Origin: Odoribacter laneus YIT 12061
GTDB lineage: Bacteria; Bacteroidota; Bacteroidia; Bacteroidales; Marinifilaceae
NCBI RefSeq assembly: GCF_000243215.1
Contig: NZ_JH594596.1
Coordinates: 702,871 to 766,870 of the forward strand
Reading direction: 5' to 3'
DNA length: 64,000 nt
Shown here: piece by piece, positions 10,043 to 29,406 of the stretch
How the letters are laid out: the number at the start of each line of letters is the position of its first letter
How positions within the stretch are numbered: position 1 is the stretch's first letter
Notes under the pieces: generated by a model
Databases searched by the model: none
Told to the model about the DNA's origin: nothing
Seen by the model: only the letters and a program-made list of their open reading frames with translations
Program-made: the position numbers and the translations under genes

Positions 10043-10075
10043 GTTTAGGTAATAACAGTATAAAACATTTACAGA

Positions 10076-10699: not shown

Positions 10700-10711
10700 A
10701 ATTTCGAATGT

Positions 10712-12278: not shown

Positions 12279-12301
12279 CAACCCATTAAAATTCAATCAA
12301 C

Positions 12302-13285: not shown

Positions 13286-13287
13286 TC

Positions 13288-13860: not shown

Positions 13861-13873
13861 AACTGTACCATCT

Positions 13874-14740: not shown

Positions 14741-14779
14741 GTATCGAATAAAGTATAACGTATTAAAATCTGATAGAAT

Positions 14780-15331: not shown

Positions 15332-15344
15332 GCCGATTCTGCCT

Positions 15345-15857
15345 ATGAGGTTAAAATCAATATGGTTTACAGTGCTTTGCGCCACTTTCTTTTTTCCGGG
15401 TATGCCGTCAAGGGCAGGGAATCCGGTAAAGGAAAGTCCGGACAGGTTCACTCTTGCGGTCGAGTGTGTCAAGCGATTCGAGGGCTGGCATGGAGAAAAA
15501 AAGCATTGGCCTTATGTCGGGTGGGGGCACAAGGTTCTTCCCGGAGAGAGGTTTACCAACAGCATTTCCAAAGCGCAGGGAGACTCCATTCTGAGGGAAG
15601 ACCTCCGTAAGCTGTGCCGCATGTTCAGTTATCTGGGGCGTGATTCTTTATTGGCAGCAGTCCTTTCATATAATGTCGGACCCTACAGATTAAAAGGCTA
15701 TGGGAAAAGACCGAAAAGCCGTCTGTTAAAGAAGCTGGAGTCGGGAGACCGTAATATTTACAAGGAATATGTCTCTTTCAGGTGCTATAAAGGGAAAGTG
15801 GTTCCGAGCATCGAACGGAGAAGGAAGGTGGAATTCATGCTGCTTTTTGAAGAGTAA
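15345..15857 (+). CDS. phage-type lysozyme (glycoside hydrolase 24-like) of the tra operon
   Basis: A 170-residue exported murein hydrolase with an N-terminal signal sequence (LCATFFFPGMPSRAG). The lysozyme core shows VKRFEGWH, with the catalytic Glu at about residue 46, then PYVGWGHKV and AVLSYNVGPYRLKGYGK. The Asp that usually follows about nine residues after the Glu is not obvious here. Such enzymes open peptidoglycan locally so that the mating channel can be built. It follows traQ by 13 bases and ends at a strong terminator. Confidence 0.85.
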   Translation: MRLKSIWFTVLCATFFFPGMPSRAGNPVKESPDRFTLAVECVKRFEGWHGEKKHWPYVGWGHKVLPGERFTNSISKAQGDSILREDLRKLCRMFSYLGRDSLLAAVLSYNVGPYRLKGYGKRPKSRLLKKLESGDRNIYKEYVSFRCYKGKVVPSIERRRKVEFMLLFEE

Positions 15858-15945: not shown

Positions 15946-16872
15946 TCAGTTTATCGGAATGGCATCCTGCACTTCCACCTCTTCAGAGAGACGGGAAAGC
16001 AGCAGTTCCGCCATGGCTCCATTCTGCGGAATGAGAGCCGGAAAGTCTGTTTTCCCGGGCTTATATATTTCAGTGGCCACGTTGTACAAATCCCATGCAG
16101 TAATTTGTCCCTTGCTCATGGCCAGTTTCAGCACCTCTTCCGTGAAGATGGAAATCTGGCTCTGGTTCAGCGGGTAGGTTTCCACAGTGGATGACAGGTT
16201 TCTGTCCGAACTGTCATGGGAAACGCGCAAGGCTGTCAGCAGGCCGATGTACAGGTAGATTTCTTCCATCGGGACGATCCGGCGTTTCAACCGCTGAATC
16301 CTTGCAATGTCCTCGTTCATGTTCACTTCGAAATTGGCCAGCCAGCCGTCCACGGTTTCGAAGAATTCATCGGTTGTCACCTTCTTTTTCCCGTAATTGC
16401 AGATGCTCCGCTGCGGCGAGAGGATGCACTGGTTATGGCATATCTTCACGCAGGGACCTATGGCTGCCTGTATGCCGTCCTGGTGGTAGGCGACGGCCAG
16501 TGTGCTTGTCAGCTCGTCCGTCTCCCAATCCTTGATCCGGATAGTAGCAAAAATACGGCGCAGGATATGGGCTTCCACGGCTTTTTCACCATGTGTCTGT
16601 TCTACCTGCGGGAGGATGCTCACTCCCGGCTGTGTCTTGTTTCTGTTCTGGGCAGCAAAGATTTCTTCCACCTCATAATCGAGATTGTATTTCTCACAGA
16701 TGTCCATCATGCGGCGTATGACCTGGTAATGGTAGATGCCCTGCACCGGATTGTTGTAGATGTCATTTTCTTTATAGGTGCGTTGGAGTGTCTCGAAGTT
16801 CATTACTTCAATTCCGTTTTTCTGGAAGTCAAACTGCTGTTGTCTTTCCATTACTGCCAATGTCGTTTCCAT
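15946..16872 (-). CDS. DUF3871 family protein
   Basis: A 308-residue protein of a family found almost only in Bacteroidete conjugative elements; no function is known. Visible segments are MNFETLQRTYKENDIYNNPV, the central AAIGPCVKICHNQCILS, LKRRIVPMEEIYLYIGLLTA and QGQITAWDLYNVATEIYKPG-like text (here SKGQITAWDLYNVATEIY). The Cys/His cluster in the middle could bind metal. The layout resembles DUF932-type proteins of mobile elements (inference). It is the second gene of the minus-strand operon led by hairpin element 1 and lies 44 bases after the DUF4120 gene. Confidence 0.82.
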   Translation of the reverse strand: METTLAVMERQQQFDFQKNGIEVMNFETLQRTYKENDIYNNPVQGIYHYQVIRRMMDICEKYNLDYEVEEIFAAQNRNKTQPGVSILPQVEQTHGEKAVEAHILRRIFATIRIKDWETDELTSTLAVAYHQDGIQAAIGPCVKICHNQCILSPQRSICNYGKKKVTTDEFFETVDGWLANFEVNMNEDIARIQRLKRRIVPMEEIYLYIGLLTALRVSHDSSDRNLSSTVETYPLNQSQISIFTEEVLKLAMSKGQITAWDLYNVATEIYKPGKTDFPALIPQNGAMAELLLSRLSEEVEVQDAIPIN

Positions 16873-16916
16873 ATTGAATTGAATTTTATAAAGTTAATAT
16901 TGTCGTTTGCCTCTCA

Positions 16917-17207
16917 TCAGGTGTGTATCTGCCATCCATGGAACGGCTGTAGTGTCACGGCGAAAGAACGGTCCGGTATTCCGTGATAGAGCAGGCCGCC
17001 CACGATGCCTGTCCTTCCGTCGGGATAGCGTTGGGTGAAGCCGAACGAGTACGGGGCATGGTCATAGTAGAGTGAGATTTCGCTGGGATAGTCAGGATTT
17101 TCCTCCCAGCTCTTCAACCGTTCCAGGCATTTCTGGAGTGAGGTGTCACCGATGGATTCGGCATAACGCGTTACATTCTCGAAATGTTCTTGATTCAGGA
17201 TTTTCAT
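16917..17207 (-). CDS. DUF4120 family protein
   Basis: A 96-residue soluble protein of a small family tied to Bacteroidete mobile elements. The family pattern MKILNQEHFENVTRYAESIG, then SLYYDHAPYSFGFTQRYPDG and GGLLYHGIPDRSFAVTL, is clear. No catalytic motif is evident. It is the first gene after hairpin element 1; its start codon lies 50 bases from the hairpin base. Confidence 0.78.
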   Translation of the reverse strand: MKILNQEHFENVTRYAESIGDTSLQKCLERLKSWEENPDYPSEISLYYDHAPYSFGFTQRYPDGRTGIVGGLLYHGIPDRSFAVTLQPFHGWQIHT

Positions 17208-17257
17208 GATTCATTGTATTTATCTGTTAAACACGTCCGGCTCCGGGAGCCGGTATT

Positions 17258-17425
17258 TTTATTTCTCACCTGCCTGACTGTCCCGTGGCAGTACCCACAA
17301 GGTTTGGCGAAAGAAAATACCGCAGCCGTCAGGCGAGGATGATTTTCTTTCAGTCAACCCCGCAGGGGCCTGACCTTGGTCGGGTACACCGGACACGGGA
17401 CTACCTTTGCAGGGTGGGAAATAAA
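17258..17425. promoter_or_regulatory. hairpin element 1 (candidate single-stranded-DNA promoter)
   Basis: A long imperfect hairpin. Base stem TTTATTTC (17258-17265) with GAAATAAA (17418-17425), continuing through CACC and TGC; then an unpaired bubble with CTGACT on the left and TACCTTTG (17402-17409) on the right; then GTCCCGTG (17280-17287) with CACGGGAC (17394-17401), GTACCC (17291-17296) with GGGTAC (17382-17387), CAAGG with CCTTG (to 17378), and an apical stem GAAAGAAAAT (17309-17318) with ATTTTCTTTC (17342-17351) enclosing accgca-GCC-gtca-GGC-gaggatg. TTG to TACCTTTG spacing is 23. It shares structure with elements 2 and 3. Confidence 0.8.
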
Positions 17426-17500
17426 ATGCACGGTAGTGTGCTTTGCATGGGCTGTGGCGAATCTCTTCCTGATTTGTTCGCCATTGCCGGACAAAAGATG

Positions 17501-17508
17501 TATTTTTG
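17501..17508 (+). promoter_or_regulatory. -7 box of the gene at 17529
   Basis: TATTTTTG fits TAnnTTTG and lies 20 bases before the start codon, so this gene has its own ordinary promoter independent of hairpin element 1. Confidence 0.5.
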
Positions 17509-17528
17509 CAATTTCTAATTTCAGAATC

Positions 17529-17873
17529 ATGGAAAACTATATAAAGAAAGCGGCGGATGCTTTTCTTGTGGAGCGTCCGTACGGTATGCGTGTGGATTAC
17601 AGGAAGAAAGGTTTCGTCCTGTTTAACCGCAACCTCAATGTGTTGGGAAATGCGGAACAGGCCCGTCTGGAGGAACTGCCTCTGGAGCTGTTCAATGTGG
17701 AGGAGATACCATTAGCGGGTGAAATTGTGGAGGAACACGCCGGATTTACCGATGTGTTCTTCTATACCGATTTGACCAATCCTTATGCCGGAAATGTGCT
17801 GAACCTGCAAAAACTGAAAGCCTATAACCAGTTTATGTTCCCACTGGCAATGGTGCTGAATCGTGAGTTGTAA
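17529..17873 (+). CDS. small protein of unknown function, plus strand
   Basis: A 114-residue acidic protein starting MENYIKKAADAFLVERPYGM; it contains KKGFVLFNRNLNVLGN and FTDVFFYTDLTNPYAGNVLN. No domain is recognised and there is no signal or membrane segment. The start at 17529 is preferred over the longer frame from 17376, which would begin in hairpin element 1. It is the only ICE-type plus-strand gene in an otherwise minus-strand block, and is followed by the A+T-rich AbiH gene. Confidence 0.65.
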   Translation: MENYIKKAADAFLVERPYGMRVDYRKKGFVLFNRNLNVLGNAEQARLEELPLELFNVEEIPLAGEIVEEHAGFTDVFFYTDLTNPYAGNVLNLQKLKAYNQFMFPLAMVLNREL

Positions 17874-17928
17874 TGTATTATTTATTGAGATAGCAGATAC
17901 AAAATCAATATAAACTTCTCTTTTATAT

Positions 17929-18816
17929 ATGCATAGTTTATTCCCCGAATTTGAACGAATTGATCAGAATACACTTTTTGTTATAGGTAATGGGTTTGAT
18001 CTCGCCAGTGGTATCAAATCAAGTTATTATGATTTCAAGCAATGGCTGATATTGAATAAAAGAGATCAGCTAATCAACCTTATGGACATTTTTTTCAGTA
18101 ATCAACGGGAGATATGGGGGGATATTGAAAAAGCGCTTGGTGAATATGATGAGGATAGTATTCTTGAGTTCTGCAAGCCGGATGAAGAATTTGATTATGA
18201 TCATCCTACACGTTCGGTTGCTGCAATAGAAGATTCTCCTGATTGGATATTTAGGCCTGTATTGGATGAATTTATTGAGGCTTTTACCGAATGGGTGAAT
18301 AGTATTGATATAACTGTAGCAGATAAAGTCCTCGATTTACCATCATGTAGTAAATACCTGACATTCAACTATACAGAAACTTTAGAAAAAATATATGGGA
18401 TTCCACAATTAAATATTTTACACATCCATGGTTCTCGTCTTTCTGAAAATAATTATATCATTGGGCATGATAATCCAAGAGATACGGATGAGGTATATAA
18501 TGATGAAGGGGAGTATATTTTTGTTCAAGATACGTGGAGTAAAATAATAGCATGGATGAATGAGCTTGTGAAGAATTGTAAATATATCATAAATGCAAAT
18601 CAGGATTTTTTCAAGGGGTTGTCTAATATAGAACGAGTTGTTGTTTATGGTCATTCATTTTATGAAATTGATTGGCCTTATATGAGCGAGATTGTTAAAC
18701 AAATTGGGAAAGACAAGCCCTGGATAATATCATATCATGAAAATAAAGATTTGATTCAAATAGACTCTTTTATAAAGGCACATGAATTGAAAAAGGTTAC
18801 AAAATTCTTGTGGTAA
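17929..18816 (+). CDS. AbiH-family abortive infection protein (copy 2)
   Basis: A 295-residue AbiH protein. LFVIGNGFDLASGIKSSYYD is the N-terminal hallmark; LTFNYTETLEKIYGI, ILHIHGSR and IIGHDNPRD are the central motifs, and VVYGHSFYEIDWPYM lies near the C-terminus. It differs strongly from the AbiH at 1902-2879, so the two were acquired separately. The low G+C content contrasts with both neighbours. It is closed by a strong terminator just downstream. Confidence 0.9.
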   Translation: MHSLFPEFERIDQNTLFVIGNGFDLASGIKSSYYDFKQWLILNKRDQLINLMDIFFSNQREIWGDIEKALGEYDEDSILEFCKPDEEFDYDHPTRSVAAIEDSPDWIFRPVLDEFIEAFTEWVNSIDITVADKVLDLPSCSKYLTFNYTETLEKIYGIPQLNILHIHGSRLSENNYIIGHDNPRDTDEVYNDEGEYIFVQDTWSKIIAWMNELVKNCKYIINANQDFFKGLSNIERVVVYGHSFYEIDWPYMSEIVKQIGKDKPWIISYHENKDLIQIDSFIKAHELKKVTKFLW

Positions 18817-18819
18817 ATC

Positions 18820-18870
18820 AAGAGGCTGCGTCGGTTAAAAAATCTAAATGACACAGCCTCTTATTTTATA
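18820..18870. terminator. terminator between AbiH copy 2 and the minus-strand operon
   Basis: AAGAGGCTGCGTC (18820-18832) pairs with GACACAGCCTCTT (18850-18862) with one G-T pair, followed by TATTTTAT. It lies 3 bases after the AbiH stop and overlaps the end of the convergent gene. Confidence 0.75.
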
Positions 18871-19183
18871 ATACAATTTCATCTATAATCTCATTCCCTG
18901 TTATTTCGCCTTTTAAAAAGGAGAACAGCCGCTGGAAAAAGAACGGAGCATGGTCTGTTTCCAGCTGTGAGCTTTCTCCGTTCCGTGTAGCGCATATGGC
19001 AAACCGTCCCAGTCCGAAACTTTCCGGTGGCGGTACGATGTGGAATGACAGGTTTTCCGTACCGTTGATGTGAATACCTCCACGATAGGTATAGAAAGTT
19101 TTTGCGGTTCTCCTGTCCGTGTCAATGTTCACACGGCTGTAGCCGTAGCGTTTCAGTTCTTGTATGATTTCCTTCTTTTTCAT
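18866..19183 (-). CDS. small protein of unknown function, last gene of operon 2
   Basis: A 105-residue protein. Its N-terminus (KKKEIIQELKRYGYSRVNID) looks like a short helical DNA- or protein-contact segment; the middle (TFYTYRGGIHINGTENLSFH) is beta-rich. No family is recognised. The start overlaps the end of the J-domain gene by 4 bases (ATGA-type overlap), so it is translated from the same message. Confidence 0.65.
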   Translation of the reverse strand: MKKKEIIQELKRYGYSRVNIDTDRRTAKTFYTYRGGIHINGTENLSFHIVPPPESFGLGRFAICATRNGESSQLETDHAPFFFQRLFSFLKGEITGNEIIDEIVL

Positions 19184-20253
19184 GGTTGTTGCAGTTGGAT
19201 TTGATTTGAATGGTTCATGTATTTTATCGCCTTCATCTTTTGGGATATACTTTGCTCTGATACCCAGACCCGGTATGCCCGGCTGTATTCCTCTCGTTCC
19301 TGTTCTAAAAGGTTTTCCGTTTCAGGCGTATAGCCAAGGAACTCGATATAGCCTCCATTATACCCCGTCAGTCGGCACCGTATGCCGGCTTCCGAGAGTT
19401 TGTCCATCCGTTTCTGTGCGTTTCTGGCACTGGAATACTGCTTCGGCCAAAAATAGTGTTCTCCCGTAGAGCCGTAGGCATCCTCTCCGAGAATCAGTTT
19501 TCCGGGAAACCTGAGGCTGGCAATGAAGTCAAAGCGTGCTTTGCCCAATGCCTGCCGCAGAGCCTTGTGTGCCGGACCTTCCGGATGCTTGAACGCTTGC
19601 GCTTTGTTTTGGCTCTTGAGTCCGGGCAGTTCCACTTTGTACGGCTGTCTGTAACTGCCTATCCCTAACGTGAGGTAGAAGTTGGTGTGGAAATAATCGG
19701 TCATCGGGTCGCTGTCATCGAAGTTGTACGACATGACGAAATCGCAGATATTCTGCATGACCTCTTTGGCCCGGTCTGTCAGGGTCTTGTCAGACGAGAT
19801 GTTGTAGTGGTTGACATCACCATGGACCTTTCCGGATTCTTTGGTGAACGCCTCGAAATCCGCTTTCATCAGCCGGATGTGGATGGAGTGGTAATTCTCG
19901 CGCCTGACCGAGAACCTGTATCCCGGATAGGTATCCTTGAGCCATGCACGTAGCGGTTCCACAATCTCCGGTGCGTGCTGTCCCTTGTAATTGCGGCCTT
20001 TCCAGCGGTATTCATTATATACATATTCGGTGTATTCTTTTGCTGTGGCTCCCGAATGGTCATATTCATATCCGGTTGAAGTCGCAGATATATCCGGTTT
20101 GTCTTTCCAAATGTCGAAAAGTCTTTCAAACTCGGTATTCACCCGTTGCATGATTGCTGTGTCACCACCCTTGTCCGGGTGGTGCTGCAATGCCAGCCGG
20201 CGGTATTCTTTCTTCAAGTCCGCCAGCGAATGTATGTTCTGAAAATAGGTCAT
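19180..20253 (-). CDS. J-domain protein of the conjugative element
   Basis: A 357-residue protein with an N-terminal J domain: LADLKKEYRRLALQHHPDKG, with the HPD motif at about residues 25-27 that stimulates Hsp70 ATPase. The remainder is not a DnaJ (no Gly/Phe region or zinc finger). It has YNEYRWKGRNYKGQHAPEIV, a block of Tyr and His, and FWPKQYSSARNAQKRMDKL near the C-terminus, with the look of the polyvalent-protein-associated domains of mobile elements. It may direct the host DnaK to a protein of incoming DNA; this is inference. Confidence 0.75.
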   Translation of the reverse strand: MTYFQNIHSLADLKKEYRRLALQHHPDKGGDTAIMQRVNTEFERLFDIWKDKPDISATSTGYEYDHSGATAKEYTEYVYNEYRWKGRNYKGQHAPEIVEPLRAWLKDTYPGYRFSVRRENYHSIHIRLMKADFEAFTKESGKVHGDVNHYNISSDKTLTDRAKEVMQNICDFVMSYNFDDSDPMTDYFHTNFYLTLGIGSYRQPYKVELPGLKSQNKAQAFKHPEGPAHKALRQALGKARFDFIASLRFPGKLILGEDAYGSTGEHYFWPKQYSSARNAQKRMDKLSEAGIRCRLTGYNGGYIEFLGYTPETENLLEQEREEYSRAYRVWVSEQSISQKMKAIKYMNHSNQIQLQQP

Positions 20254-20265
20254 GGCTGTTGTCTG

Positions 20266-20574
20266 TTATGCCCCCTGCGAGGCGGTTGATGACATATTCC
20301 TTGTGGTCGAGGTCGAATTCCTGTTCCTGTTTCTGAAGCGTCGTCCGTCGTATATCAAGACGGCCCGCTCCACCAGAAGCCTGCGGCTGTCTTCCGAGAG
20401 TTCCAGATAGAACCGTTCCGCTGCACCGAATGTGCCCTTGTCCGTCGCCACGCACCATTTTTCCCAAAAATGCGGATACATGTTGCCATAGACGGCTTTG
20501 CATTCTTCCTCACTCCAGGCGTTCCACATATAGAAGAAGAAACTGGAGACTGCGTTTTCTGCCTGTAAATACAT
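20266..20574 (-). CDS. small protein of unknown function
   Basis: A 102-residue protein rich in aromatic residues at its N-terminus (SFFFYMWNAWSEEECKAVYG) and with an Arg/Asn/Ser-rich tail (RRFRNRNRNSTSTTRNMSST). I recognise no family. It lies between the J-domain gene (12 bases) and the next upstream gene (11 bases) in operon 2. Confidence 0.6.
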   Translation of the reverse strand: MYLQAENAVSSFFFYMWNAWSEEECKAVYGNMYPHFWEKWCVATDKGTFGAAERFYLELSEDSRRLLVERAVLIYDGRRFRNRNRNSTSTTRNMSSTASQGA

Positions 20575-20585
20575 ATCCTGCTCTT

Positions 20586-21170
20586 TTAAGATTTGACATG
20601 ACGGGGTGTTTCCAATTCCAATTTCGCGGCTTCGTATATTTCACGGAGCCAGTCGATGTTGCTTGCACCGAGTTCAAACGGTCCGTAGCATTCCACTTCG
20701 TCACCGCTTTCTTTCTCTTCGGCAATGACGGTCAGGCTGCTTGCCGTTATCCGGACACCCGTGACCCGGCATTCATACGGGTCTCCGTTTTTCCCGAACC
20801 AGACTATCCATACTGGATCATCTTCCCTGTCCGTAAAGGCCAGTTCCGTCAGTGAGTACGCCTGAAGCAACTGCCGTATCGCTTCGATGATGTCATTGCG
20901 CAGTTCCTCAATCCGGTCGCTGAAATCCATTGCGGTGTATTTCACCCGGGCTTTCCTGCCTGTTTCCTTGATCGAGAGTATCAGCGATTCGGGATGGATG
21001 CCGAAGTTCCAGTCCGTCACCTCTTCCTCATTACATGTCGTGTGGATATTGCCGCCCAATACCAGACCGCAGTCTTCCTCTACCACTCTTTTTGCTTCTT
21101 CGCAGCTTCCTGCCGCTACCGTGTAAGTACCCTCGAAGGCGTATCTTACTCTTACTTTGTATCTTGCCAT
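20586..21170 (-). CDS. protein of unknown function, operon 2
   Basis: A 194-residue protein. The start at 21170 (MARYKVRVRYAFEGTYTVAA) is preferred over an in-frame ATG at 21239 that would lie inside the upstream gene. The first 60 residues look like a small beta domain; a helix with DRIEELRNDIIEAIRQLLQA follows, then VWIVWFGKNGDPYECRVTGV. No catalytic motif is recognised. It is acidic, as are several anti-restriction proteins, but that alone does not assign a role. Confidence 0.65.
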   Translation of the reverse strand: MARYKVRVRYAFEGTYTVAAGSCEEAKRVVEEDCGLVLGGNIHTTCNEEEVTDWNFGIHPESLILSIKETGRKARVKYTAMDFSDRIEELRNDIIEAIRQLLQAYSLTELAFTDREDDPVWIVWFGKNGDPYECRVTGVRITASSLTVIAEEKESGDEVECYGPFELGASNIDWLREIYEAAKLELETPRHVKS

Positions 21171-21195
21171 AATTCCTATAATTGGGTTGTTGATA

Positions 21196-22158
21196 TTATA
21201 TGTTTGATTGCTGTTCCTTCTTCCCGTACGAAGAGACAAGGCTTATCCTCTCACCGAAGAAAGAATCGTCCACTCCATACACATGTCCGATGGAATAGTC
21301 ATACTTGTTCCGTTCCTCGTCCAGACGGAGACGGAAACCATGGTAGCCGTTGATTTCCAATTTCAACCTGACATCCTGTTTCAACTCCATTTCAAGCAGG
21401 CTGCCACCGCCGTAAGCGGAACTGAAAAGCCCGCAGCAGTTGCCTTTAGGAATAACAACTTCACCCGGTGAGAATCCGGATTCGTACAGTTCTTTCAGAT
21501 TTACCCTGCCGGTATAGGTCAACAGGTTGGCACCGCAACAGGAGTTGATGAGTTCTTGGTAGAATTGTTCATAGGATACCTGTTCCTTGCCGTTCCTTCC
21601 TTTGCGGTTCGGGAAGCGTCCGTAAACCTTGCAACCATGCTCCGTCAGGAGCTTCTTCACGCTTGCCGGATTGAGGTTCAGCGCGTCTACCATATCCCCG
21701 AAGTAGCTTTCTTCATACCGGTAGCCGCCCTGTGACTCAAACCAGTCGGAGTTGATGCAGTCATAATTGGAAAGCATCTCCACACGGACAGGGATGTCAT
21801 CCGTATTCTTTATCAGTTCCGAAAGGACATCCGAATCGTTGCGACCGTATATCTCATCGCGTATTTCATCTTCGTGTTCTTCAAAGAAGGCTTCCACCGT
21901 CTTTTCATCAACATGGAAGCATGCGGTACATTCCGCCTTCAGTCTTGTGACGATTTTACGAACTGCTTCCCATTCGCTATCTCTGTACCATTCATCTGCC
22001 TTTTCCCACAATTTTTCTTGGCTTTTACTTGCAAGGCATTCATGGATCAGGTCGAGACGATTGTCAAGGTTGTCGTTATAATCCGTCCACACCAGCGTGT
22101 AGGATTCGTCCATGAGGGACTTGACGAGTTCCATTGTCAGTTTTTTCTGTTCTTTCAT
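21196..22158 (-). CDS. protein of unknown function, operon 2
   Basis: A 320-residue acidic protein. Visible segments: YTLVWTDYNDNLDNRLDLIH at the start, a Trp/Glu-rich helical part, RVEMLSNYDCINSDWFESQG, KKLLTEHGCKVYGRFPNRKG and a C-terminal beta part with LKLEINGYHGFRLRLDEERN. Several Cys residues (NSCCGANLL, KGNCCGLF) may be structural. No domain is recognised. It is conserved-looking and intact, and codon use matches the rest of the ICE. Confidence 0.65.
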   Translation of the reverse strand: MKEQKKLTMELVKSLMDESYTLVWTDYNDNLDNRLDLIHECLASKSQEKLWEKADEWYRDSEWEAVRKIVTRLKAECTACFHVDEKTVEAFFEEHEDEIRDEIYGRNDSDVLSELIKNTDDIPVRVEMLSNYDCINSDWFESQGGYRYEESYFGDMVDALNLNPASVKKLLTEHGCKVYGRFPNRKGRNGKEQVSYEQFYQELINSCCGANLLTYTGRVNLKELYESGFSPGEVVIPKGNCCGLFSSAYGGGSLLEMELKQDVRLKLEINGYHGFRLRLDEERNKYDYSIGHVYGVDDSFFGERISLVSSYGKKEQQSNI

Positions 22159-22163
22159 TTTCG

Positions 22164-22286
22164 TTACCTGTGTACGGCAGGATTCTGTTTCCCGTACATG
22201 TGGTTATAAATGCAGAGAGCGACCTTGCGGCCGCTCCCTTGCTATCCGTTTTCTTTCATGAATTTTTCGTATTTCTCTTTTTCCAT
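22164..22286 (-). pseudogene. very small gene split by a TAG, with a strong ribosome-binding site
   Basis: On the minus strand, AAAGGAGG precedes ATG (22286) by a few bases, a good Shine-Dalgarno that is unusual in this phylum. The frame reads MEKEKYEKFMKENG, then TAG (22244-22242), then QGSGRKVALCIYNHMYGKQN and five more residues to a TAA at 22164. It may be a 40-codon gene with a nonsense codon, a 14-residue leader peptide, or chance. It lies between two operon-2 genes. Confidence 0.35.
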
Positions 22287-22298
22287 GTTGTCCTCCTT

Positions 22299-22613
22299 TC
22301 AGTTTAAGAATTCCGTTTCTTTCCCGTTGTCTTTTGCGGCCAGGACACCGAAGGGCAAGTCCAGTATCCTGTGGCTGAAACACATCGTGGAGTTGTAGTC
22401 CGTACGTTGCCAGAGTATAAAGCGGTCTTCGGCGAACGACCACCTGAAATAGCCTGACAGGGAGCCGAACCGGGGGTTGACATTCCTTCTGATGAGGAAA
22501 CGGTTTACATCCACGATATGTCCTGCCGTCAGTATGATGTTCAGAATCTCGACGAATGCCAGCTGTGAATACGGGTCAATGGGCATGACAGGTCCTTTGA
22601 AGTTGATTTCCAT
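22299..22613 (-). CDS. small protein of unknown function, operon 2
   Basis: A 104-residue protein beginning MEINFKGPVMPIDPYSQLAF, with GHIVDVNRFLIRRNVNPRFG and YFRWSFAEDRFILWQRTDYN. No family recognised. It starts 11 bases after the ArdA-like gene and is therefore the second gene after hairpin element 2. Confidence 0.62.
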   Translation of the reverse strand: MEINFKGPVMPIDPYSQLAFVEILNIILTAGHIVDVNRFLIRRNVNPRFGSLSGYFRWSFAEDRFILWQRTDYNSTMCFSHRILDLPFGVLAAKDNGKETEFLN

Positions 22614-22624
22614 ATTTTTCCCAT

Positions 22625-23119
22625 TTAATTGTAATTATCATCAAATATCTCGTAATGGAAGGGAAGCATGTCGCAATAGCTGCTTGATATGCCTGTATAT
22701 ATCAGCGTATCTTCTGCCAAGTCAGCAGTGTCCTCTTCCTTCTCGGCAACGGCATCTCCGTACAGGTCATGATAGTGCGAGACAATCATGTGCGGATCAT
22801 CCGTACTGATGTCATAGCCGTAATTCCTGCTCCAGGCCATGAAGAATTCGGTTTCTTCCTCTTCGAGCCTTTCAAGGGCATCCCTGATTTCGAAGAAGTT
22901 TGGGCAGAGCCATTCACGGCTGACCAGTATGTCAGGGATGTTCTCCCATTTGGAATACCGGTATTGCGGTTCTTCCTCGCCGGGGAACAGGTCGGAGCAG
23001 GCACACAGGAATTCGCCCATGTCACTGTAGTCAGACATGTGCAGCCAGTAGTCCCTGTAATTCTTTATATCAATGAGATGCTGTGTTGTCACGGCAATCT
23101 CTGCATTGTTTAGATTCAT
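22625..23119 (-). CDS. ardA: ArdA-like antirestriction protein
   Basis: A 164-residue, very acidic protein that resembles ArdA, the DNA mimic that blocks type I restriction enzymes. WLHMSDYSDMGEFLCACSDL, then GEEEPQYRYSKWENIPD and EWLCPNFFEIRDALERLEEE match the ArdA pattern; IVSHYHDLYGDAV is the late Phe/Tyr-x-x-x-Tyr-G element. It is the first gene after hairpin element 2 (start codon 17 bases from the hairpin base). Early expression of ArdA in a new host is a known trait of plasmid leading regions. ArdA proteins are usually near 165-170 residues, which fits. Confidence 0.75.
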   Translation of the reverse strand: MNLNNAEIAVTTQHLIDIKNYRDYWLHMSDYSDMGEFLCACSDLFPGEEEPQYRYSKWENIPDILVSREWLCPNFFEIRDALERLEEEETEFFMAWSRNYGYDISTDDPHMIVSHYHDLYGDAVAEKEEDTADLAEDTLIYTGISSSYCDMLPFHYEIFDDNYN

Positions 23120-23136
23120 ATCCTTTTCATTATTAT

Positions 23137-23334
23137 GTATGCGAATGCCGGGGATTCCATTCCACCGACTTCAAGAAGGTGCCGTGTCCCGGCTGTGCAG
23201 GGTTTTTCGGGAAAATACCACAGCCGTGGCGAGGATGATTTTCCCGAAAACCGCTTGCGGCATGACCTTGCACGGCCAAGGAAGACACGGACTACCTTTG
23301 TCGGTGGGAATGGAACTCCCGGTTCTTTTCATAC
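23137..23334. promoter_or_regulatory. hairpin element 2 (candidate single-stranded-DNA promoter)
   Basis: Base stem GTATG (23137-23141) with CATAC (23330-23334), then CCGGG with CCCGG and TTCCATTCCACCGAC-type pairing with GTCGGTGGGAATGGAA; bubble with TTCAAGAAGGTG on the left and TACCTTTG (23293-23300) on the right; CCGTGTC with GACACGG; GCAGG with CCTTGC; and a perfect 13-bp apical stem TTTTCGGGAAAAT (23204-23216) with ATTTTCCCGAAAA (23238-23250) enclosing accaca-GCC-gt-GGC-gaggatg. TTG (23268-23270) to TACCTTTG is 22 bases. Confidence 0.82.
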
Positions 23335-23343
23335 GGTTCATAT

Positions 23344-26300
23344 TCAGTTTGCTATTCGCTGGCTTCCCCAGCTGATGTGTATTTTGCCTTCATGGTCCTG
23401 CGTGCGGACAAGCAGGCTGTCGATGACGGACATCGTAATGTCGAACTCCTCGAATATCTCGGACTGTTCCTTGACTTCTCCTGTCTTGATAAACTCGTTC
23501 AGCCGTTCCTTGGTCAGTACCAGTGCCATCAGGTTCTGTTCGACCGAGTCCTCATAGGTGACATAATGAACGTCCTTCATTTCTTTGGAATCGAGGCGGA
23601 TGAACCGGAAGTAGAACTGTTCCATGCGGGGAATGTTCCATTGCAGGGATTCCAGTATCACCTGATTGCAGGCAGGTATGTTCACCGAGCTGCTCAGGCT
23701 TTGCTGTGTGCATATCAATATGCCGTTGATGGTAGAGTCGAATTCCGTCACGATGTTTTGCCTCCTTTTGAATGCCACGTCTCCCTTGACCACAAATACC
23801 GGGCGGTCGGGAAAGCATTTGCGGAGATGGTTCTCGTAAAGGTCGAATGCGGCTATCGACGTGCAGCCGACAGCCACTTTTCCGGGTATCTTCCGCACCA
23901 GTTTCTCTATGTACTTTGTCTTGTTCGGAATCCCGTCTCCGGAGTAACCCTCTATCAGGTGTGGGACGGAACAGGCCTTGATAAGCAGTTTGATCTGCCG
24001 CATGAGCCGGAGTCCGGCATCCTTCTTCGCATCACCCGTACTGTTGTAATACAGCTCACAGATACGGCAGAATTCCTCGATGATGACACGGTAAACCTCA
24101 CGCTCTCCGTCCGACGGACTGACGGTATGGGTCTGTATCTTGTATTTTTCTCCTGCGAAATCCCTGAACTTGCGTGTGATGACCGTCTTGCCGATAAGTT
24201 CTGACAATTCCTCCTTGTTATAGACATCCTGGTTCTGCTTCTCGATGCCGAATACGGTGGCTTTTCCGGGACAGTGGCAGGCACGGAAGAGGACGTGCCC
24301 CCTGAAGGCCGGGAATGGACTGCCGTAATCCGTATTGTTCTCTTCCTCTATCTCACGTTCCTTGTTTTCGTGATAGACCTGCGGGCTCCAGCACACCATG
24401 TTCACCGAATTGTTGTAAAGCAGCTCGAACTGGCTGTACAGTTCCGCTATGTTGTTGCGCGTGGTCGTTCCGGTGTCAAGAATCTTATACTTGAGCCTTC
24501 TGAATATGCACAGGATGTTTCTTGTGCGCTGTGAAGTCGGATTCGTGATTTCGTCCGACTCGTCGAAAACAAGACACAGTTTCCGGGAAGTTTGTTTCAC
24601 GTAGCGCACCAGCCCTCTTCGCAGTTTGCCGAGCATGGAGGTTGAAACGACGAGGAACATGCCTTCGGGTACGTTTGTAAGGTCGCTCTCTGCCCGGATG
24701 ACACGGAACCGTTCCCTGTTTACCGACAGGAACGGAATCCAGGTCATGTTGGTGGCAATGGCCGGTGCAAGAATGATGGCATTCCTTACTTTTCGGAATT
24801 TGAGCAGGAATCTGGCCCGGTAATAGACAGCCGCGGTTTTGCCCGATCCCTGCTGCCAGTTCAGCAGGGCATAGCGTTTTTGAAGTACAAGGTTCAGGTC
24901 ATGCTTTTGCAGGGTTGTGAATTCACATGCCTCGCCGTCCTTGTTGATGAATGTGCTCCGGTCCAGATATTCCTTCAGATTGACGTCTTCTTCCATATCC
25001 GCAAACCGGAGGTTCTGCATTTCATACTGTTTCTGCTTCCGGCGTATCAGTTTCTCCGCCGCACGGATCTGAAGCCTGTTCCTTTCCGTTACGGTTTCCG
25101 GTACCGGAAGTTCAGCCCTCCCGAGAATGAGATTGTTGATGCTTGCAGCCTTGTGTGTGACTTTGTCAAGCAGACGGGGTGCGTATGGTTTGAGTTTGAA
25201 ACCGTAGGAGGTCTTCACCAGTGCCACTTCCTTGCGTGGTACTGAATGCTGGGAAGTGATGTACTTGCGGATGATTCCGAGTACCTTGCCTGTGGTCAGT
25301 TTTTTACGTTCCCAGTCTTTGACCTGCTGGTTCGTGGCATTTTCCGGTGGTTTTTGGTTGCGGAACTTGGATACAAGTGCCTCTGCCTTCTCAATGTGCC
25401 TGTTCAGTACGGCATGGGCTTTCAGCTCATACATATACTTGGAGAGCCTGTATTCGAACGCTTCCAGTTCCTCGCGGTCTATCCGGTTGGTTTCCCGCAT
25501 GAGGTCAATCCGGATTCTCTGCTTCATCACCCTTGTCTTCCTGACGCGGTCTTTCAACTCTTCCATCGGAATGAACTCGTCCGCATTGTAGGGTTGCATT
25601 TCGATGTGGCGTGACCTGCGCAGGAATACCATGACTTTCGTGCTGAAGTTATGTACTCCCATGGAATCGAAAGCATCCGGATTCAGTTTGGTCTGGCCGA
25701 CAAAGGAAAAACTGCTGTTGATATTGGCAACACGTGTCTTCTCCCAAAATTCACTCTGCATGAATGACACGGGTACGATGACCATCAGGAATCCTGCCGG
25801 ATTGAGCACGTCGTATGCTTTATCCATATAATATTCCTGTGAAAGTTTACAGTCAAATTTCAGGTTGAATGGCGGGTTGCCGATGATTACGTCAAAACGT
25901 TGTTCCGGGCGGTACTGCTGTATGTCGCATTTTTCGATATGGGCTTCCGGATAGAGGTGTCTTGCAACGGTTACAGCTCTGCCGTCTATGTCAAAGCCGT
26001 AGCTGTTATGCAGGTTCGGCAGGTGGTTGAAGAAGTTGCCCATTCCACAACACATATCAAGCACCATTTCCGAAGAGGTCGGGGAAAGGACCTCCACCAT
26101 GCTCCGGCATAGCTCATGAGGGGTGAAAAACTGGCCCATCTCGAATTCTTTCTTGGCTTCCGCATATCTGTGATAGCTGGAAAAATCTGCCTGCTTGAGA
26201 TTGTGCAGTCCTCCGATACCTGTGTAGCAGTTGTAGATGCTCTCCTTCGGAATGAGGTCCTTGCCGGAATCGATGGCAAAAAGGATTTTCTCGTTCACCT

Positions 26301-26346
26301 CGGCACGCTTGTCCCGGGGAATCTGTTGGGGTATGATGGCATACAT
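23344..26346 (-). CDS. N6-adenine methyltransferase-helicase fusion
   Basis: A 1000-residue protein. The N-terminal part is a gamma-class methyltransferase: DMCCGMGNFFNHL (motif I, about residues 97-109) and IIGNPPFN (motif IV, residues 155-161). The C-terminal half is an SF2/SNF2 helicase: Walker A WQQGSGKT (497-504), Walker B LVFDESDEI (592-600), and the late motif NQVILESLQWNIPRMEQFYF. Similar fusions occur in many Bacteroidete conjugative elements and recall phage P1 DarB, which protects entering DNA from type I restriction. Protection of the ICE is a fair inference. It is the last gene of operon 3, behind an intergenic hairpin. Confidence 0.85.
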   Translation of the reverse strand: MYAIIPQQIPRDKRAEVNEKILFAIDSGKDLIPKESIYNCYTGIGGLHNLKQADFSSYHRYAEAKKEFEMGQFFTPHELCRSMVEVLSPTSSEMVLDMCCGMGNFFNHLPNLHNSYGFDIDGRAVTVARHLYPEAHIEKCDIQQYRPEQRFDVIIGNPPFNLKFDCKLSQEYYMDKAYDVLNPAGFLMVIVPVSFMQSEFWEKTRVANINSSFSFVGQTKLNPDAFDSMGVHNFSTKVMVFLRRSRHIEMQPYNADEFIPMEELKDRVRKTRVMKQRIRIDLMRETNRIDREELEAFEYRLSKYMYELKAHAVLNRHIEKAEALVSKFRNQKPPENATNQQVKDWERKKLTTGKVLGIIRKYITSQHSVPRKEVALVKTSYGFKLKPYAPRLLDKVTHKAASINNLILGRAELPVPETVTERNRLQIRAAEKLIRRKQKQYEMQNLRFADMEEDVNLKEYLDRSTFINKDGEACEFTTLQKHDLNLVLQKRYALLNWQQGSGKTAAVYYRARFLLKFRKVRNAIILAPAIATNMTWIPFLSVNRERFRVIRAESDLTNVPEGMFLVVSTSMLGKLRRGLVRYVKQTSRKLCLVFDESDEITNPTSQRTRNILCIFRRLKYKILDTGTTTRNNIAELYSQFELLYNNSVNMVCWSPQVYHENKEREIEEENNTDYGSPFPAFRGHVLFRACHCPGKATVFGIEKQNQDVYNKEELSELIGKTVITRKFRDFAGEKYKIQTHTVSPSDGEREVYRVIIEEFCRICELYYNSTGDAKKDAGLRLMRQIKLLIKACSVPHLIEGYSGDGIPNKTKYIEKLVRKIPGKVAVGCTSIAAFDLYENHLRKCFPDRPVFVVKGDVAFKRRQNIVTEFDSTINGILICTQQSLSSSVNIPACNQVILESLQWNIPRMEQFYFRFIRLDSKEMKDVHYVTYEDSVEQNLMALVLTKERLNEFIKTGEVKEQSEIFEEFDITMSVIDSLLVRTQDHEGKIHISWGSQRIAN

Positions 26347-26377
26347 GCTTTTACTTTTTGATGGTTAAAAACAGAAA

Positions 26378-26404
26378 CACCCCGCAAGGAAGCCTTACGG
26401 GGTG
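26378..26404 (-). terminator. intergenic hairpin before the methyltransferase-helicase gene
   Basis: CACCCCGCAAGG (26378-26389) pairs with CCTTACGGGGTG (26393-26404), with one C-A mismatch. On the minus strand it is followed by GTTTTTAACC. It looks like a terminator or attenuator inside operon 3 that would lower expression of the methyltransferase-helicase. Confidence 0.65.
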
Positions 26405-26425
26405 CAGGATTAAACTTTTCATGAA

Positions 26426-27364
26426 TCAATCTTCATTGAGCGTGATTTCGTCCAGATGGAGCCGTCTGTAACAGTTTTCGGCAGCCGGACTGTCTTTGAA
26501 CCGTATGTCGATGCGTCCGTTCTTGTAGAATTTGATCTGCCGAGCATTGTCCGTGGTAAGACTGTACCACTGTGTGATGTCCACGTTTCGCTCGTCAAGT
26601 CCGATAACCATTCCGGTTGAGCCGTTTATCAGGTCATCCGAACCGTAGGCTATACCTTCACAGAAGATGTTCACCTTGTTTCTACAGTCGTATGAGAATT
26701 CGTATTCACCGTGATATTCCAGATGGATGCTGTCCCAATATACGATATCAGGAAATGTTATCTTGTCCTTTTTCAGCTCGGGTTTGACCTTGCTCCAACG
26801 TGAGGGTCGTACCGTTTTCAGGAAACGGGCCAGCAGTTCCTCCTCGGCAGTTTCCCGGAAACTCTTTCCGCCCAGATGTTCGATGACAGAATCCACATAG
26901 GTCTGGTAGACCGGTCTGAATCCCATAGGCAATGTCTGTCCGTCAATTTTCGGGACAGGGACATCCACATTGTAGGTCTTGTTGAAATAGGAAATGATGC
27001 GGTTGGCAAAGTTCGCATTGGCATTGTGGCTCTTGTCCACAAGGTCGTTAATGAGGTTGAACGGTTTGAACTCATTGTGCGAATAATCATCCTGCCCGTT
27101 GTGGAAATAAAAGTCGCGGATGGAGACCTTGCCGTTGTCCTCGTACTTGAACTGTCTTTCTTTCCGGTACTGTTCCGCATCCTCCTTGAAGATGGCATAC
27201 CACTTTTCTATCTGGTTGAGTGTCTTGTACAGAAGATCCTGCTGTGACTGGCAATAGAGCCTGTCCTGTTCGGTAATCTTTTCCTCGTTTCTTACTTGTA
27301 CGCTCAGAATGCCGGAAAGCAGGTCGGGAGCGTTACCGGCCTTGATTGATGTTGTTGTCTGCAT
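26426..27364 (-). CDS. protein of unknown function, operon 3
   Basis: A 312-residue soluble protein. A helical N-terminus (EQDRLYCQSQQDLLYKTLNQ) leads to YHNGQDDYSH-like text (here FYFHNGQDDYSHNEFKPFNL), NANFANRIISYFNKTYNVDV and IVYWDSIHLEYHGEYEFSYD. The C-terminal part (QIKFYKNGRIDIRFKDSPAA) is beta-rich. It resembles proteins that accompany the methyltransferase-helicase in related elements, but I cannot name a domain. It precedes the attenuator-like hairpin. Confidence 0.68.
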   Translation of the reverse strand: MQTTTSIKAGNAPDLLSGILSVQVRNEEKITEQDRLYCQSQQDLLYKTLNQIEKWYAIFKEDAEQYRKERQFKYEDNGKVSIRDFYFHNGQDDYSHNEFKPFNLINDLVDKSHNANANFANRIISYFNKTYNVDVPVPKIDGQTLPMGFRPVYQTYVDSVIEHLGGKSFRETAEEELLARFLKTVRPSRWSKVKPELKKDKITFPDIVYWDSIHLEYHGEYEFSYDCRNKVNIFCEGIAYGSDDLINGSTGMVIGLDERNVDITQWYSLTTDNARQIKFYKNGRIDIRFKDSPAAENCYRRLHLDEITLNED

Positions 27365-27384
27365 ATCGGTTGTAATTTAAGATG

Positions 27385-28200
27385 TTAGAAATTTTGTGGC
27401 TTGATCCGGTAGAAGTACGTGATGTGCTGTTCCATGTCCTTGACTATCTTGACTTGTTCAGGATAAAAATTGAATCTCCGTTCAACAGCCGGTTCATCAA
27501 TTTTATTCCATTCGTCTTGCGTGATAAAACGGTTTTCATGACGGAAGCACCATACCACGATTTGATTTGCCCAGTTACCCTTGAACACCGTTCCTTCATA
27601 GTCTTCCAGGAACTGTCTGAAATCGGTTTCATTCCGGAAAGCGATATCGAAACTTTGATAAAGATTGCCTTTTTCCGTATCCATTCTTTTATTCAGGTAA
27701 AACTTCCGGTAGGTCTCGGTAGTGTAATTGCCATACTTTGGATTGGGTTCGGCATAGAACCATAGCGGCACTCTGGCCAGAAAGGTGACCGAGCCGTTGG
27801 CACATGCTCCACAGCTTCCCCAATCCTTGAAAGCACCTTCCGTCCATTTCAGGAATTTCATGTCCTTCGGGTTTACACGGTGGAATGCTCCACCGCTGAC
27901 ACTCAGACGGATGCTTCCGTCCTCCTTCCATACAAAAGGCACATAGGGCCGTTCGCATACGGACAGGCGTTCTTCATCCCTGTGCATGTGATCGATTAGG
28001 GCATGTCCGTAATAATCTCCATGCTCGGTGACATATACCACTCTGTCACCGACTTGCGGTGTGATTTCCGAGCGTGTCCGTTCGATGAGTTGCACGTAAT
28101 TGTTGGCCATATCCACATCATCCTGCGTAAGCCAATGTTCACGGTCGTATGAAACATTCAGTTCTCTGAGTGTTTCGATACTGTACTTGTCTTTTGCCAT
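27385..28200 (-). CDS. DUF4121-like protein
   Basis: A 271-residue protein, first gene after hairpin element 3. The start at 28200 (MAKDKYSIETLRELNVSYDR) is chosen over 28221, which would touch the hairpin base. Segments such as VGDRVVYVTEHGDYYGHALI, GGAFHRVNPKDMKFLKWTEG and FKDWGSCGACANGSVTFLAR fit my recollection of DUF4121 proteins, known from Bacteroidete mobile elements. No catalytic motif is seen; the CGAC pair may be structural. Confidence 0.62.
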   Translation of the reverse strand: MAKDKYSIETLRELNVSYDREHWLTQDDVDMANNYVQLIERTRSEITPQVGDRVVYVTEHGDYYGHALIDHMHRDEERLSVCERPYVPFVWKEDGSIRLSVSGGAFHRVNPKDMKFLKWTEGAFKDWGSCGACANGSVTFLARVPLWFYAEPNPKYGNYTTETYRKFYLNKRMDTEKGNLYQSFDIAFRNETDFRQFLEDYEGTVFKGNWANQIVVWCFRHENRFITQDEWNKIDEPAVERRFNFYPEQVKIVKDMEQHITYFYRIKPQNF

Positions 28201-28219
28201 CTGTTGTAACATAACAATC

Positions 28220-28434
28220 AATATTTGTTAGTCCGGCATTTCGGGGCCGGAGTTCCCATAACTACAGGCTTTAAAAGGTCGTGTTCCGTACATGCAAGGC
28301 TTCGGGAAAAAATACCGCAAGCCCTTCGGGCGAGGATGATTTTTTCCACGAACCCGAAGGGCTTGGCCTTGCTTGGACGAGTAGAACACGAGTTACCTTT
28401 GCCTGTGGTTATGGGGACTCGGCTACTGAATATT
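28220..28434. promoter_or_regulatory. hairpin element 3 (candidate single-stranded-DNA promoter)
   Basis: Base stem AATATT (28220-28225) with AATATT (28429-28434), a side hairpin CCGGcatttcggggCCGG in the left arm, then CCATAACTACAGGC with GCCTGTGGTTATGG; bubble with TTTAAAAGGT on the left and TACCTTTG (28394-28401) on the right; CGTGTTC with GAACACG; GCAAGG with CCTTGC; and apical stem GGAAAAAAT (28305-28313) with ATTTTTTCC (28339-28347) enclosing accgca-AGCCC-ttc-GGGC-gaggatg. TTG (28369-28371) to TACCTTTG is 22 bases. Confidence 0.82.
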
Positions 28435-28444
28435 TATTTTTTTC

Positions 28445-28467
28445 TCAATCTTATCCGATAAGATTGA
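28445..28467. repeat. perfect inverted repeat, 11-bp arms
   Basis: TCAATCTTATC (28445-28455) and GATAAGATTGA (28457-28467) flank a single C. It lies 34 bases before a -7 box and could be an operator for the broken winged-helix gene that follows. Confidence 0.6.
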
Positions 28468-28500
28468 AGTCATTTATTATGTCCTTTAAAATAGAAATGT

Positions 28501-28508
28501 TATCTTTG
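28501..28508 (+). promoter_or_regulatory. -7 box before the broken winged-helix gene
   Basis: TATCTTTG fits TAnnTTTG, 29 bases before the ATG at 28537. Confidence 0.45.
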
Positions 28509-28536
28509 TAATCGAATTAAAGAGTTATTTGAAAGC

Positions 28537-28750
28537 ATGAGAAATATGGCAGTTCTACACAGTCCAGCTTTTTCTTATCCGTTGCCCGTTCTCGTGCGAG
28601 TTTTATCCAATCTGTTGATATTCAAAGGGAAAATACTTTATTACAACAAAGATTCGTAAACTGATCGACAAAGACTTCGTTAGTAAGACCGTTCAACGGT
28701 ATGAAATTACTACCCGATATTTGGAGGAATTCATTAAGAAAGAATCTTAG
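28537..28750 (+). pseudogene. frameshifted winged-helix regulator remnant
   Basis: The first frame runs from ATG 28537 (MRNMAVLHSPAFSYPLPVLV) and stops after 41 residues. The second frame then reads KIRKLIDKDFVSKTVQRYEI and ends in ITTRYLEEFIKKES and a TAG at 28748. The second part has the look of the recognition helix and wing of a small MarR- or HTH-type regulator. A promoter box and an operator-like palindrome precede it. At least one frameshift near 28645 breaks it. Confidence 0.5.
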
Positions 28751-28791
28751 CTATCGGATATTGCCTTAAATAACTTGGAAGCCAACTTCAT

Positions 28792-29052
28792 TTGAAAGAA
28801 ATTGCCGATGTGTGTGAAATACATAAAAACCTCTCCACACACACCGCTAGGCACTCGTATGCCACCTCTATATGCCTTGTGAATAGCGTAAGCATGGAGA
28901 ATGTAGCAAAGATGTTAATACATGATGCGGAAGTGGCGGAAGCTTTGGGCATTGCTTGCATATTATATGCAGGCGGACATAATAGTCTGTATCTGCTTTC
29001 TGGAAAGGCTGTGGTGGTTACAAAACTAAATGATATGCTTTCATTTATTTAA
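28792..29052 (+). pseudogene. tyrosine-recombinase tail fused to a HAD-phosphatase tail
   Basis: One open frame of two unrelated parts. The first (EIADVCEIHKNLSTHTARHS, then SVSMENVAKML) carries the HxxR box of Bacteroidete tyrosine integrases but ends before the catalytic Tyr. The second (HDAEVAEALGIACILYAGGH, then VVVTKLNDMLSFI) matches the C-terminal end of a HAD-family phosphatase, with the DAE acid of motif IV. The join is near MLIHDAE (about 28918). Neither half can work; it marks an old deletion or excision. Confidence 0.6.
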
Positions 29053-29178
29053 TCGGAAATTCCTCTGCTTATAATTCTCCGGGATATATATGTTGAGTAC
29101 GGTTAGCCTGATACTTTGCTCTCTTTTCTGATAGTGAAGAAAATTCAAATGGCCTATACGCCCACAAATAAACTTAAC

Positions 29179-29207
29179 AAAAAAGGAAGGGAATATCTCC
29201 TTTTTTT
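29179..29207. terminator. terminator-like hairpin
   Basis: AAAAAAGGA (29179-29187) pairs with TCCTTTTTT (29198-29206) and continues into T residues. It separates the scar region from the AraC gene. Confidence 0.5.
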
Positions 29208-29377
29208 ATTTCTCAAACGGCAACTTAAGTCGGTTATTTATGAGAAGTAAATTAGTGAAAAGATATGCTGAAAACAAGGGTAACTCTTTTTTTCTTTCGT
29301 TATATATGGATAGAAACGAAAAAAATGCATAATCAAAAGATAGCCATTTATGGTAACCTTTTACGTAATCTATTGAA

Positions 29378-29385
29378 TATCTTTG
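29378..29385 (+). promoter_or_regulatory. -7 box of the AraC-type regulator gene
   Basis: TATCTTTG lies 21 bases before the ATG at 29407; an in-frame TTG inside this box is therefore unlikely to be the start. Confidence 0.6.
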
Positions 29386-29406
29386 CACTCAAATAATAGA
29401 AAGTTT

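Follow-up and report, generated by a model that had tools for sequence, protein, structure and literature searches.

Why should promoter boxes that point away from an operon in duplex DNA stand, inside a long hairpin, at the start of that operon? This question is raised by a 64,000-nucleotide stretch of Odoribacter laneus YIT 12061 (the window, G000:C1:702871-766870, whose positions are used as coordinates below), which belongs to a CTnDOT-like conjugative element and in which three + strand hairpins, HP1 to HP3, each stand directly to the right of a minus-strand operon. The initial annotation of this DNA had interpreted them as promoters working only on single-stranded DNA, and that interpretation is supported here at the level of sequence. 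Each hairpin is probably a single-strand-specific promoter, active while the conjugative element is single-stranded, with transcription as a prediction. The computed support comprises the fold, its covariation, promoter boxes on the 3' arm, an open reading frame (ORF) on the 5' side, the absence from duplex DNA of an operonward TAnnTTTG and a strand that is constant relative to the mob genes in CTnDOT-like elements.

Fold and plan of the three hairpins

HP1 (17257-17426), HP2 (23148-23322) and HP3 (28246-28423), all on the + strand, carry CCTTG at 17374-17378, 23266-23270 and 28367-28371 and TACCTTTG at 17402-17409, 23293-23300 and 28394-28401, respectively, both on the 3' arm and spaced by 23, 22 and 22 nt. 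The pattern GAGGATGATTTT-N-CCTTG-N-TACCTTTG has exactly three matches in the window and none in 100 shuffles, and the same was found for the apex pattern. Folded as single-stranded DNA, HP1 reached -42.7 kcal/mol (z -5.55), HP2 -56.2 kcal/mol (z -8.50) and HP3 -64.2 kcal/mol (z -12.24), a stability attained by 0 of 200 shuffles for each hairpin. The common plan starts at the apex with a small stem of variable length, followed by the conserved internal loop (ACCRCA / GAGGATG) and an A/T stem. Towards the base come a small side hairpin, which belongs to the 3' arm, the CAAGG/CCTTG stem, one or two further stems whose sequence varies, then the -7 box and finally a base stem. The positions of the three hairpins, the plan (apex loop, A/T stem, CCTTG stem, GTGTC-like stem, -7 bubble and base stem) and the spacing of 22-23 had been described in the initial annotation and were all recovered; the side hairpin is an addition to it.

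Two observations were made beside these hairpins. GC-rich palindromes lie at the left edges of HP1 (17237-17253) and HP3 (28233-28250), with similar ones seen by eye in relatives, and would give a stem-loop within the 5' leader of the predicted mRNA. In addition, MT836551.1:20741-20942, titled 'Bacteriophage sp.' and from human faeces, matches HP1 at 96.5% across the entire 201-base query; this record may be a fragment of an integrative and conjugative element (ICE) filed as a phage.

Covariation and conservation of the boxes

A covariance model (CM) was built on 18 sequences and matches HP1 at 17265-17409 (112.3 bits), HP2 at 23164-23300 (128.5 bits) and HP3 at 28261-28401 (137.8 bits). The search with such a model, as proposed in the initial annotation, showed a family widespread in Bacteroidales that sits 5' of ardA-like, DUF4120 and DUF4121 genes. 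At E ≤ 0.01, 71 of the 393 genomes from the order had matches, representing 51 of 206 genera, and at E ≤ 1e-4 matches were found in 22 of 395 genomes of the phylum, 18 of them from other orders of the class. The CM set used below comprises 71 distinct copies. The second collection, the pattern set, results from a strict pattern over named species genomes and holds, among the matches listed, at least 119 stretches with 127 hairpins, 81 of them distinct and usable; all pattern-set counts given below are likewise among the matches listed. Titles belong to Bacteroidota in all but four of these stretches, including Phocaeicola vulgatus ATCC 8482 with copies in NC_009614 near 990.2, 1994.5 and 2009.4 kb. 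The four exceptions are metagenome-assembled genomes titled Acetatifactor, Clostridiales, Clostridium and Melainabacteria, which may be mis-binned.

The pairing of the stems is kept in homologues, as the initial annotation had expected. In the 71 distinct aligned copies, pairing cells made up 89.9%, compared with 68.5% in shuffles, and 26 of the 32 pairs showed compensatory changes on both sides. The covariation score was 0.524, against 0.152 in shuffled alignments (0 of 500 reached 0.524) and 0.06-0.13 with slid partners, the alignment having been fitted to the structure and thus somewhat favouring the true register.

Both CCTTG and TAnnTTTG are conserved on the 3' arm of the 71 distinct copies. 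Read base by base, the -7 box has T in 61 copies, A in 68, a free base (C in 51, T in 11, A in 7 and G in 2), C in 64, T in 70, 70 and 67, and finally G in 68. CCTTG was present in 60 of 66 parsed copies, five of the 71 being unparsable, and the spacer to the -7 box was 22 nt in 38 of the 66, 23 nt in 20 and 19-21 nt in the rest. Mean pairing over 63 hairpins was 0.91 for CCTTG, 0.55 for the -7 box (8 nt) and 0.86 for the next 15 nt, and a second open stretch was found 11-14 nt upstream of the -7 box. The primary Bacteroides sigma factor is reported to prefer TTTG around -33 and TAnnTTTG around -7, the length of the spacer between them being variable (PMC7366714). Compared with this sigma-ABfr type of promoter (-33 TTTG, -7 TAnnTTTG), the hairpins hold, by sequence, the same -7 box and a similar -33 element at a similar distance, but here the boxes are inside a covarying hairpin and point away from the operon in duplex DNA.

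Some further members of the family were found in other orders of the class (genomes G464, G500, G617 and others), and there was one genus with 12 genomes matched. L082, L084 and L086 represent a divergent sub-family in elements resembling integrative and mobilizable elements (IMEs), with mob genes to one side of them and an integrase-like gene to the other. In part of this group no gene is evident on the operon side, and these hairpins might act as single-strand origins.

Operon side and duplex promoters

In the folded + strand the 3' arm is the non-template and the 5' arm the template; therefore RNA polymerase would move leftwards in copying the + strand. In duplex DNA these boxes point to the right. 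The two directions were compared by recording, on each side, ATG-started ORFs of at least 50 amino acids (aa) beginning within 100 nt of the hairpin. Of the 65 usable copies of the CM set, 46 had such an ORF to the left and 20 had one to the right, the random rate being 0.29. The pattern set gave 81 of 81 on the left and 34 of 81 on the right (random 0.41), and 66 and 20, respectively, for ORFs of at least 80 aa (random 0.30); both random rates were measured on 80 of the at least 119 loci. Right-side ORFs are thus at chance level. The left distance to the ATG was 19-90 nt in the CM set, mostly 38-61 nt, counted from the 5' end of the model, and mostly 30-69 nt in the pattern set, where the reference point was placed 140 nt ahead of the end of the -7 box.

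These counts bear on the simplest alternative, in which the boxes form normal + strand promoters of duplex DNA that read to the right and merely happen to lie within inverted repeats. CCTTG-N22-TAnnTTTG would indeed be a fair rightward promoter in duplex DNA, but the chance level of right-side ORFs in both sets argues against it, and it leaves unexplained the covariation of the stems and the fixed strand relative to mob (see below), so this explanation was considered very improbable.

The initial annotation had also held that duplex DNA lacks a promoter of the TAnnTTTG type towards the operon, and the sequences bear this out. Between the ATG and 60 nt past the hairpin, an operonward TAnnTTTG was found in none of HP1-HP3 and in only 1 of the 47 CM-set operons, while in the pattern set none of 81 operons had one within 250 nt upstream of the ATG. 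As a control, 41 of 111 ordinary genes (upstream gap of at least 150 nt, from 80 of the at least 119 named loci) had TAnnTTTG within 250 nt upstream, and 11 of 111 after shuffling; the Fisher p value for 1 of 47 against the ordinary genes was 9e-7. The test covered promoters of the TAnnTTTG type.

The same result touches the possibility of RNA elements, either a structured 5' leader (riboswitch-like or attenuator) of a leftward mRNA or a small RNA. Covariation of this kind resembles that of structured RNAs. Against it, a leftward TAnnTTTG within the hairpin or up to 60 nt past it occurs in only that 1 of 47, the conserved boxes, TAnnTTTG and CCTTG, fit a promoter lying on the strand complementary to that mRNA, and Rfam 15 gave no family match up to E 1 in 16500-29500 and none at gathering score across the window. 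Such an RNA role is therefore hardly to be expected.

Strand relative to mob and transfer polarity

Within the window, the tra operon (5200-15857, + strand; TraG, TraJ, TraM and TraN by TIGR03783, TIGR03782, TIGR03779 and TIGR03780) lies between the origin of transfer (oriT) and HP1 and converges with the HP1 operon at about 15857. The mob operon, on the minus strand to the left of the window, encodes MobC_2, the relaxase and the YWFCY coupling protein. The predicted oriT is to its right, at G000:C1 ~699245, about 3.6 kb left of window base 1, with oriT and mob analysed in L006. Six hairpins surround this oriT, all on the + strand: three 6-15 kb to its left (G000:C1 684735, 685348 and 693015, outside the window) and three 21-32 kb to its right. 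Still further left there are two weaker matches, also on the + strand. The number of copies was six (G000 and G344) or seven (G006 and G010, the latter also with an eighth weak one) in the four elements that were read in most detail.

Strand was counted for the hairpins that share a contig with a YWFCY coupling-protein gene within 80 kb (58 hairpins in 28 elements). The hairpin strand was opposite to mob for 54 of the 58 hairpins and in 24 of the 28 elements. Below 33.7 kb from the coupling-protein gene, 45 of 45 were opposite to mob, on either side of oriT in CTnDOT-like elements; beyond that distance, 9 of 13. In the pattern set, neighbouring hairpins less than 60 kb apart were on the same strand in 36 of 36 pairs, from 24 named contigs with at least two hairpins.

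Which strand is transferred was approached through the anatomy of oriT. On the + strand, CTTG^C comes 7-9 nt after an inverted repeat in 12 of 21 oriT regions, whereas the other nine showed nothing above threshold, with the motif visible by eye in three. CTTG^C is a known nic class (PMC7755788). In RP4, 8 bp separate the TraJ repeat from nic and the relaxase operon enters last (PMC7314908); for CTn341, a nick site is mentioned without sequence in PMC5729914. We infer from this anatomy, and by analogy to RP4, that the + strand is transferred, entering from oriT through the tra genes, and an order with tra first and mob last is favoured. The plus strand as the transferred one, on which the initial annotation had made its interpretation depend, is in this respect favoured, but the oriT is nearly twofold symmetric, and because of this symmetry the polarity can only be inferred.

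As a separate observation, the CTnDOT-like oriT (L006:16170-16260 and relatives) is made up of either a single large inverted repeat or two placed back to back, with CTTGC at the outer flank on both sides.

Proposed mechanism

The following sequence of events is proposed. On the entering + strand, folding would place a -33/-7 promoter (CCTTG, 22-23 nt, TAnnTTTG) in a hairpin ahead of the minus-strand operon. Since the template of the operon is 5' of its hairpin, on a transferred + strand it would enter before its promoter. Host RNA polymerase, carrying the primary sigma factor, would bind to the stem and melt it at the half-open -7 box, and the polymerase would leave the hairpin at its base to copy the 5' flanking + strand, producing an mRNA with a leader of about 40-60 nt. 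The conserved apex loop is putatively a protein-binding site or a stabiliser of the fold. Second-strand synthesis would remove the fold and stop firing, and because the boxes point the other way in duplex DNA, the operon would switch off. Its products, including the ArdA-like protein described below, would protect the element in the new cell or help it to become established there.

The same transcripts could also prime the second strand. Taken further, the hairpins might be mainly single-strand origins, where RNA polymerase or a primase primes second-strand synthesis and the operon position is secondary. The fixed strand and the several copies along the element suit priming, and so do some IME copies, in which no gene is evident on the operon side. 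A pure primer site, however, needs no one-sided ORF, yet in the pattern set 81 of 81 hairpins have one within 100 nt, nor does it need TAnnTTTG unless RNA polymerase is the primase, in which case the hairpin would be a promoter as well. Origins as the main function were thus considered unlikely.

Several observations weigh against single-strand promoters. The hairpin sequences are related and hence not independent, and the test for the folding strand is weak, G-U against A-C being 136 against 39 overall and 37 against 30 in the outer helices. The initial annotation had placed the -7 box in a bubble; across the family the box is half open on average rather than fully bubbled. For 24 of the 71 CM-set copies no left ORF was found, some of these loci ending there and many being weak matches or IMEs. 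Four of the 58 hairpins are on the mob strand, all of them lone and 33.7-49 kb from the coupling gene. Where no coupling gene is near, comparison with relaxases within 60 kb gave 7 opposite and 10 same in 17 pairs, some of these hairpins looking like IMEs or unrelated neighbours, and the IME-like L082 has hairpins on both strands, two of them 2.6 kb apart. At the 12 oriTs mentioned above, the other strand also shows the repeat and CTTGC, at 5-7 nt in ten, while in the remaining two CTTGC is at other sites, 11-12 nt from a repeat. Finally, HP1 would enter about 21 kb after nic and not at once.

Relation to known single-strand promoters

Frpo is a long imperfect hairpin with its promoter boxes in the stem. 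Like the Frpo (ssi) sequences of the F and ColIb-P9 plasmids, the hairpins described here are, by predicted fold and covariation, long imperfect structures of one strand that hold both boxes, and they also head anti-restriction or establishment genes (ArdA in L050, an ArdA-like protein under HP2), although most other first genes have no known role. The boxes differ, being of sigma70 type (TTGACA/TATAAT) in Frpo and of Bacteroidota type (CCTTG / TAnnTTTG) here. Further features unlike Frpo are the conserved apex loop, the side hairpin and the location in ICEs instead of plasmids. Frpo is located in the leading region, whereas here about 21 kb separate the predicted nic from the closest copy downstream of it, three copies are 6-15 kb away on the other side, and several copies per element occur on both sides of oriT. 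HP3, as one of the three window hairpins, had no nucleotide match in a plasmid collection of 72,556 records (blastn, E 1e-5), a search that did not include a direct comparison with an Frpo sequence. The hairpins would therefore work like Frpo but, as far as tested with HP3 against that collection and given their other boxes and other place, are not members by descent.

Single-strand promoters known so far are described as Frpo/ssi from plasmids of enterobacterial type, together with homologues of these and a small number of candidates based on structure (PMC11541004). That survey reports 13,089 Frpo-homologous promoters in 6,006 elements, plus structure-based candidates, the homologues having been found by similarity to five known Frpo/ssi sequences, and its main text has 0 occurrences of 'bacteroid'. 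It also describes anti-defence islands in leading regions with genes oriented for transcription from the entering strand (PMC11541004). The arrangement here is alike in that orientation, but the islands are 21-32 kb beyond oriT, after the tra genes. Conjugative transposons of the CTnDOT/CTn341 type share the same tra operon, the mob operon with relaxase and coupling protein, and the oriT between them. A literature search, with subscription papers and preprints outside its scope, found no single-strand promoter described for Bacteroides or for CTnDOT/CTn341-type elements.

It appears rather likely that the hairpins constitute a phylum-specific class of single-strand promoters, with up to eight hairpins per element forming a 'single-strand regulon' that turns on ardA and some dozen further types of establishment operon from the entering strand and reverses direction once the DNA is duplex. 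If true, this would be a separate Bacteroidota family, with other sigma boxes and in multiple copies, and early expression from the entering strand would be a general strategy of conjugation. The hairpin could also serve as a tag for first genes (DUF4120, DUF4121, YpsA-like, DUF4326, DUF6926, DUF6943 and small membrane proteins) as candidates for a part in anti-defence or establishment in gut bacteria. The copies in Phocaeicola vulgatus ATCC 8482 make a direct bench test possible.

Genes behind the hairpins

The minus-strand operons begin with ATGs at 17207 (HP1), 23119 (HP2) and 28212 (HP3). Under HP1, the first gene (16917-17207, 57 nt from the model start) encodes a DUF4120 protein of 96 aa (PF13496, E 4.6e-60). 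The second (15946-16872, 308 aa, no family; placed in the operon by order and strand) is mostly intact in relatives at 88-93% identity, and the + strand ORF overlapping it (16216-16986) is broken in nearly all of them.

HP2 is followed by a gene for an acidic ArdA-like protein of 164 aa (22625-23119, minus strand). It had no Pfam match in a direct scan, and was assigned by profile comparison, its profile of 36 sequences aligning with a Pfam-confirmed ArdA at a probability of 99.9 and E 2.3e-35. The rest of the operon (18866-22613, minus strand), assigned by order and strand, contains ORFs at 22299-22613, 21196-22158, 20586-21239, 20266-20574, 19180-20253 and 18866-19183; that at 19180-20253 encodes an LPD29 protein with a DnaJ domain just under its cut-off.

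Under HP3, also on the minus strand, the first gene (27385-28212, 48 nt from the model start) encodes a DUF4121 protein, 275 aa from the ATG at 28212 (PF13497, E 5.3e-63). It is followed by a gene for a protein of 312 aa (26426-27364), similar ones being encoded by the first gene after the hairpin in the related elements L010 and L030 (N-termini, by eye), and by a third for an N6-methylase and helicase of 1000 aa (23344-26346; PF02384, E 3e-11, and PF00271, E 1.5e-9).

Across the family, first genes encode DUF4120, DUF4121, ArdA-like, ArdA, YpsA-like, DUF4326, DUF6926, DUF6943, small membrane-like and other proteins, the last without a family. Five of the ten first genes scanned had a Pfam family above cut-off, and a true ArdA heads the operon in L050 (PF07275, E 7.1e-33). 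Only ArdA has a known role among these kinds, and the mix would fit early establishment.

The variety of first genes behind similar hairpins is also what would be expected if the hairpins were sites for recombination or protein loading that fold from a single strand and gain genes through cassette capture. The integron site attC is likewise a long folded single-strand site with bulges, which these hairpins recall. Neither the promoter boxes nor the operon side is explained in that way, and sites of this kind were regarded as exceedingly improbable.

Other genes were noted in the same elements. In L051 (874-1434), L083 (1786-2343) and L177, the first gene resembles, by eye, a small sigma-like protein, the L051 protein being without a Pfam match. 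Near the tra region of the window there are two AbiH-family abortive-infection genes (PF14253), at 1902-2879 on the minus strand and 17929-18816 on the + strand, and an Abi_2 gene is found at L006:7557-8423.

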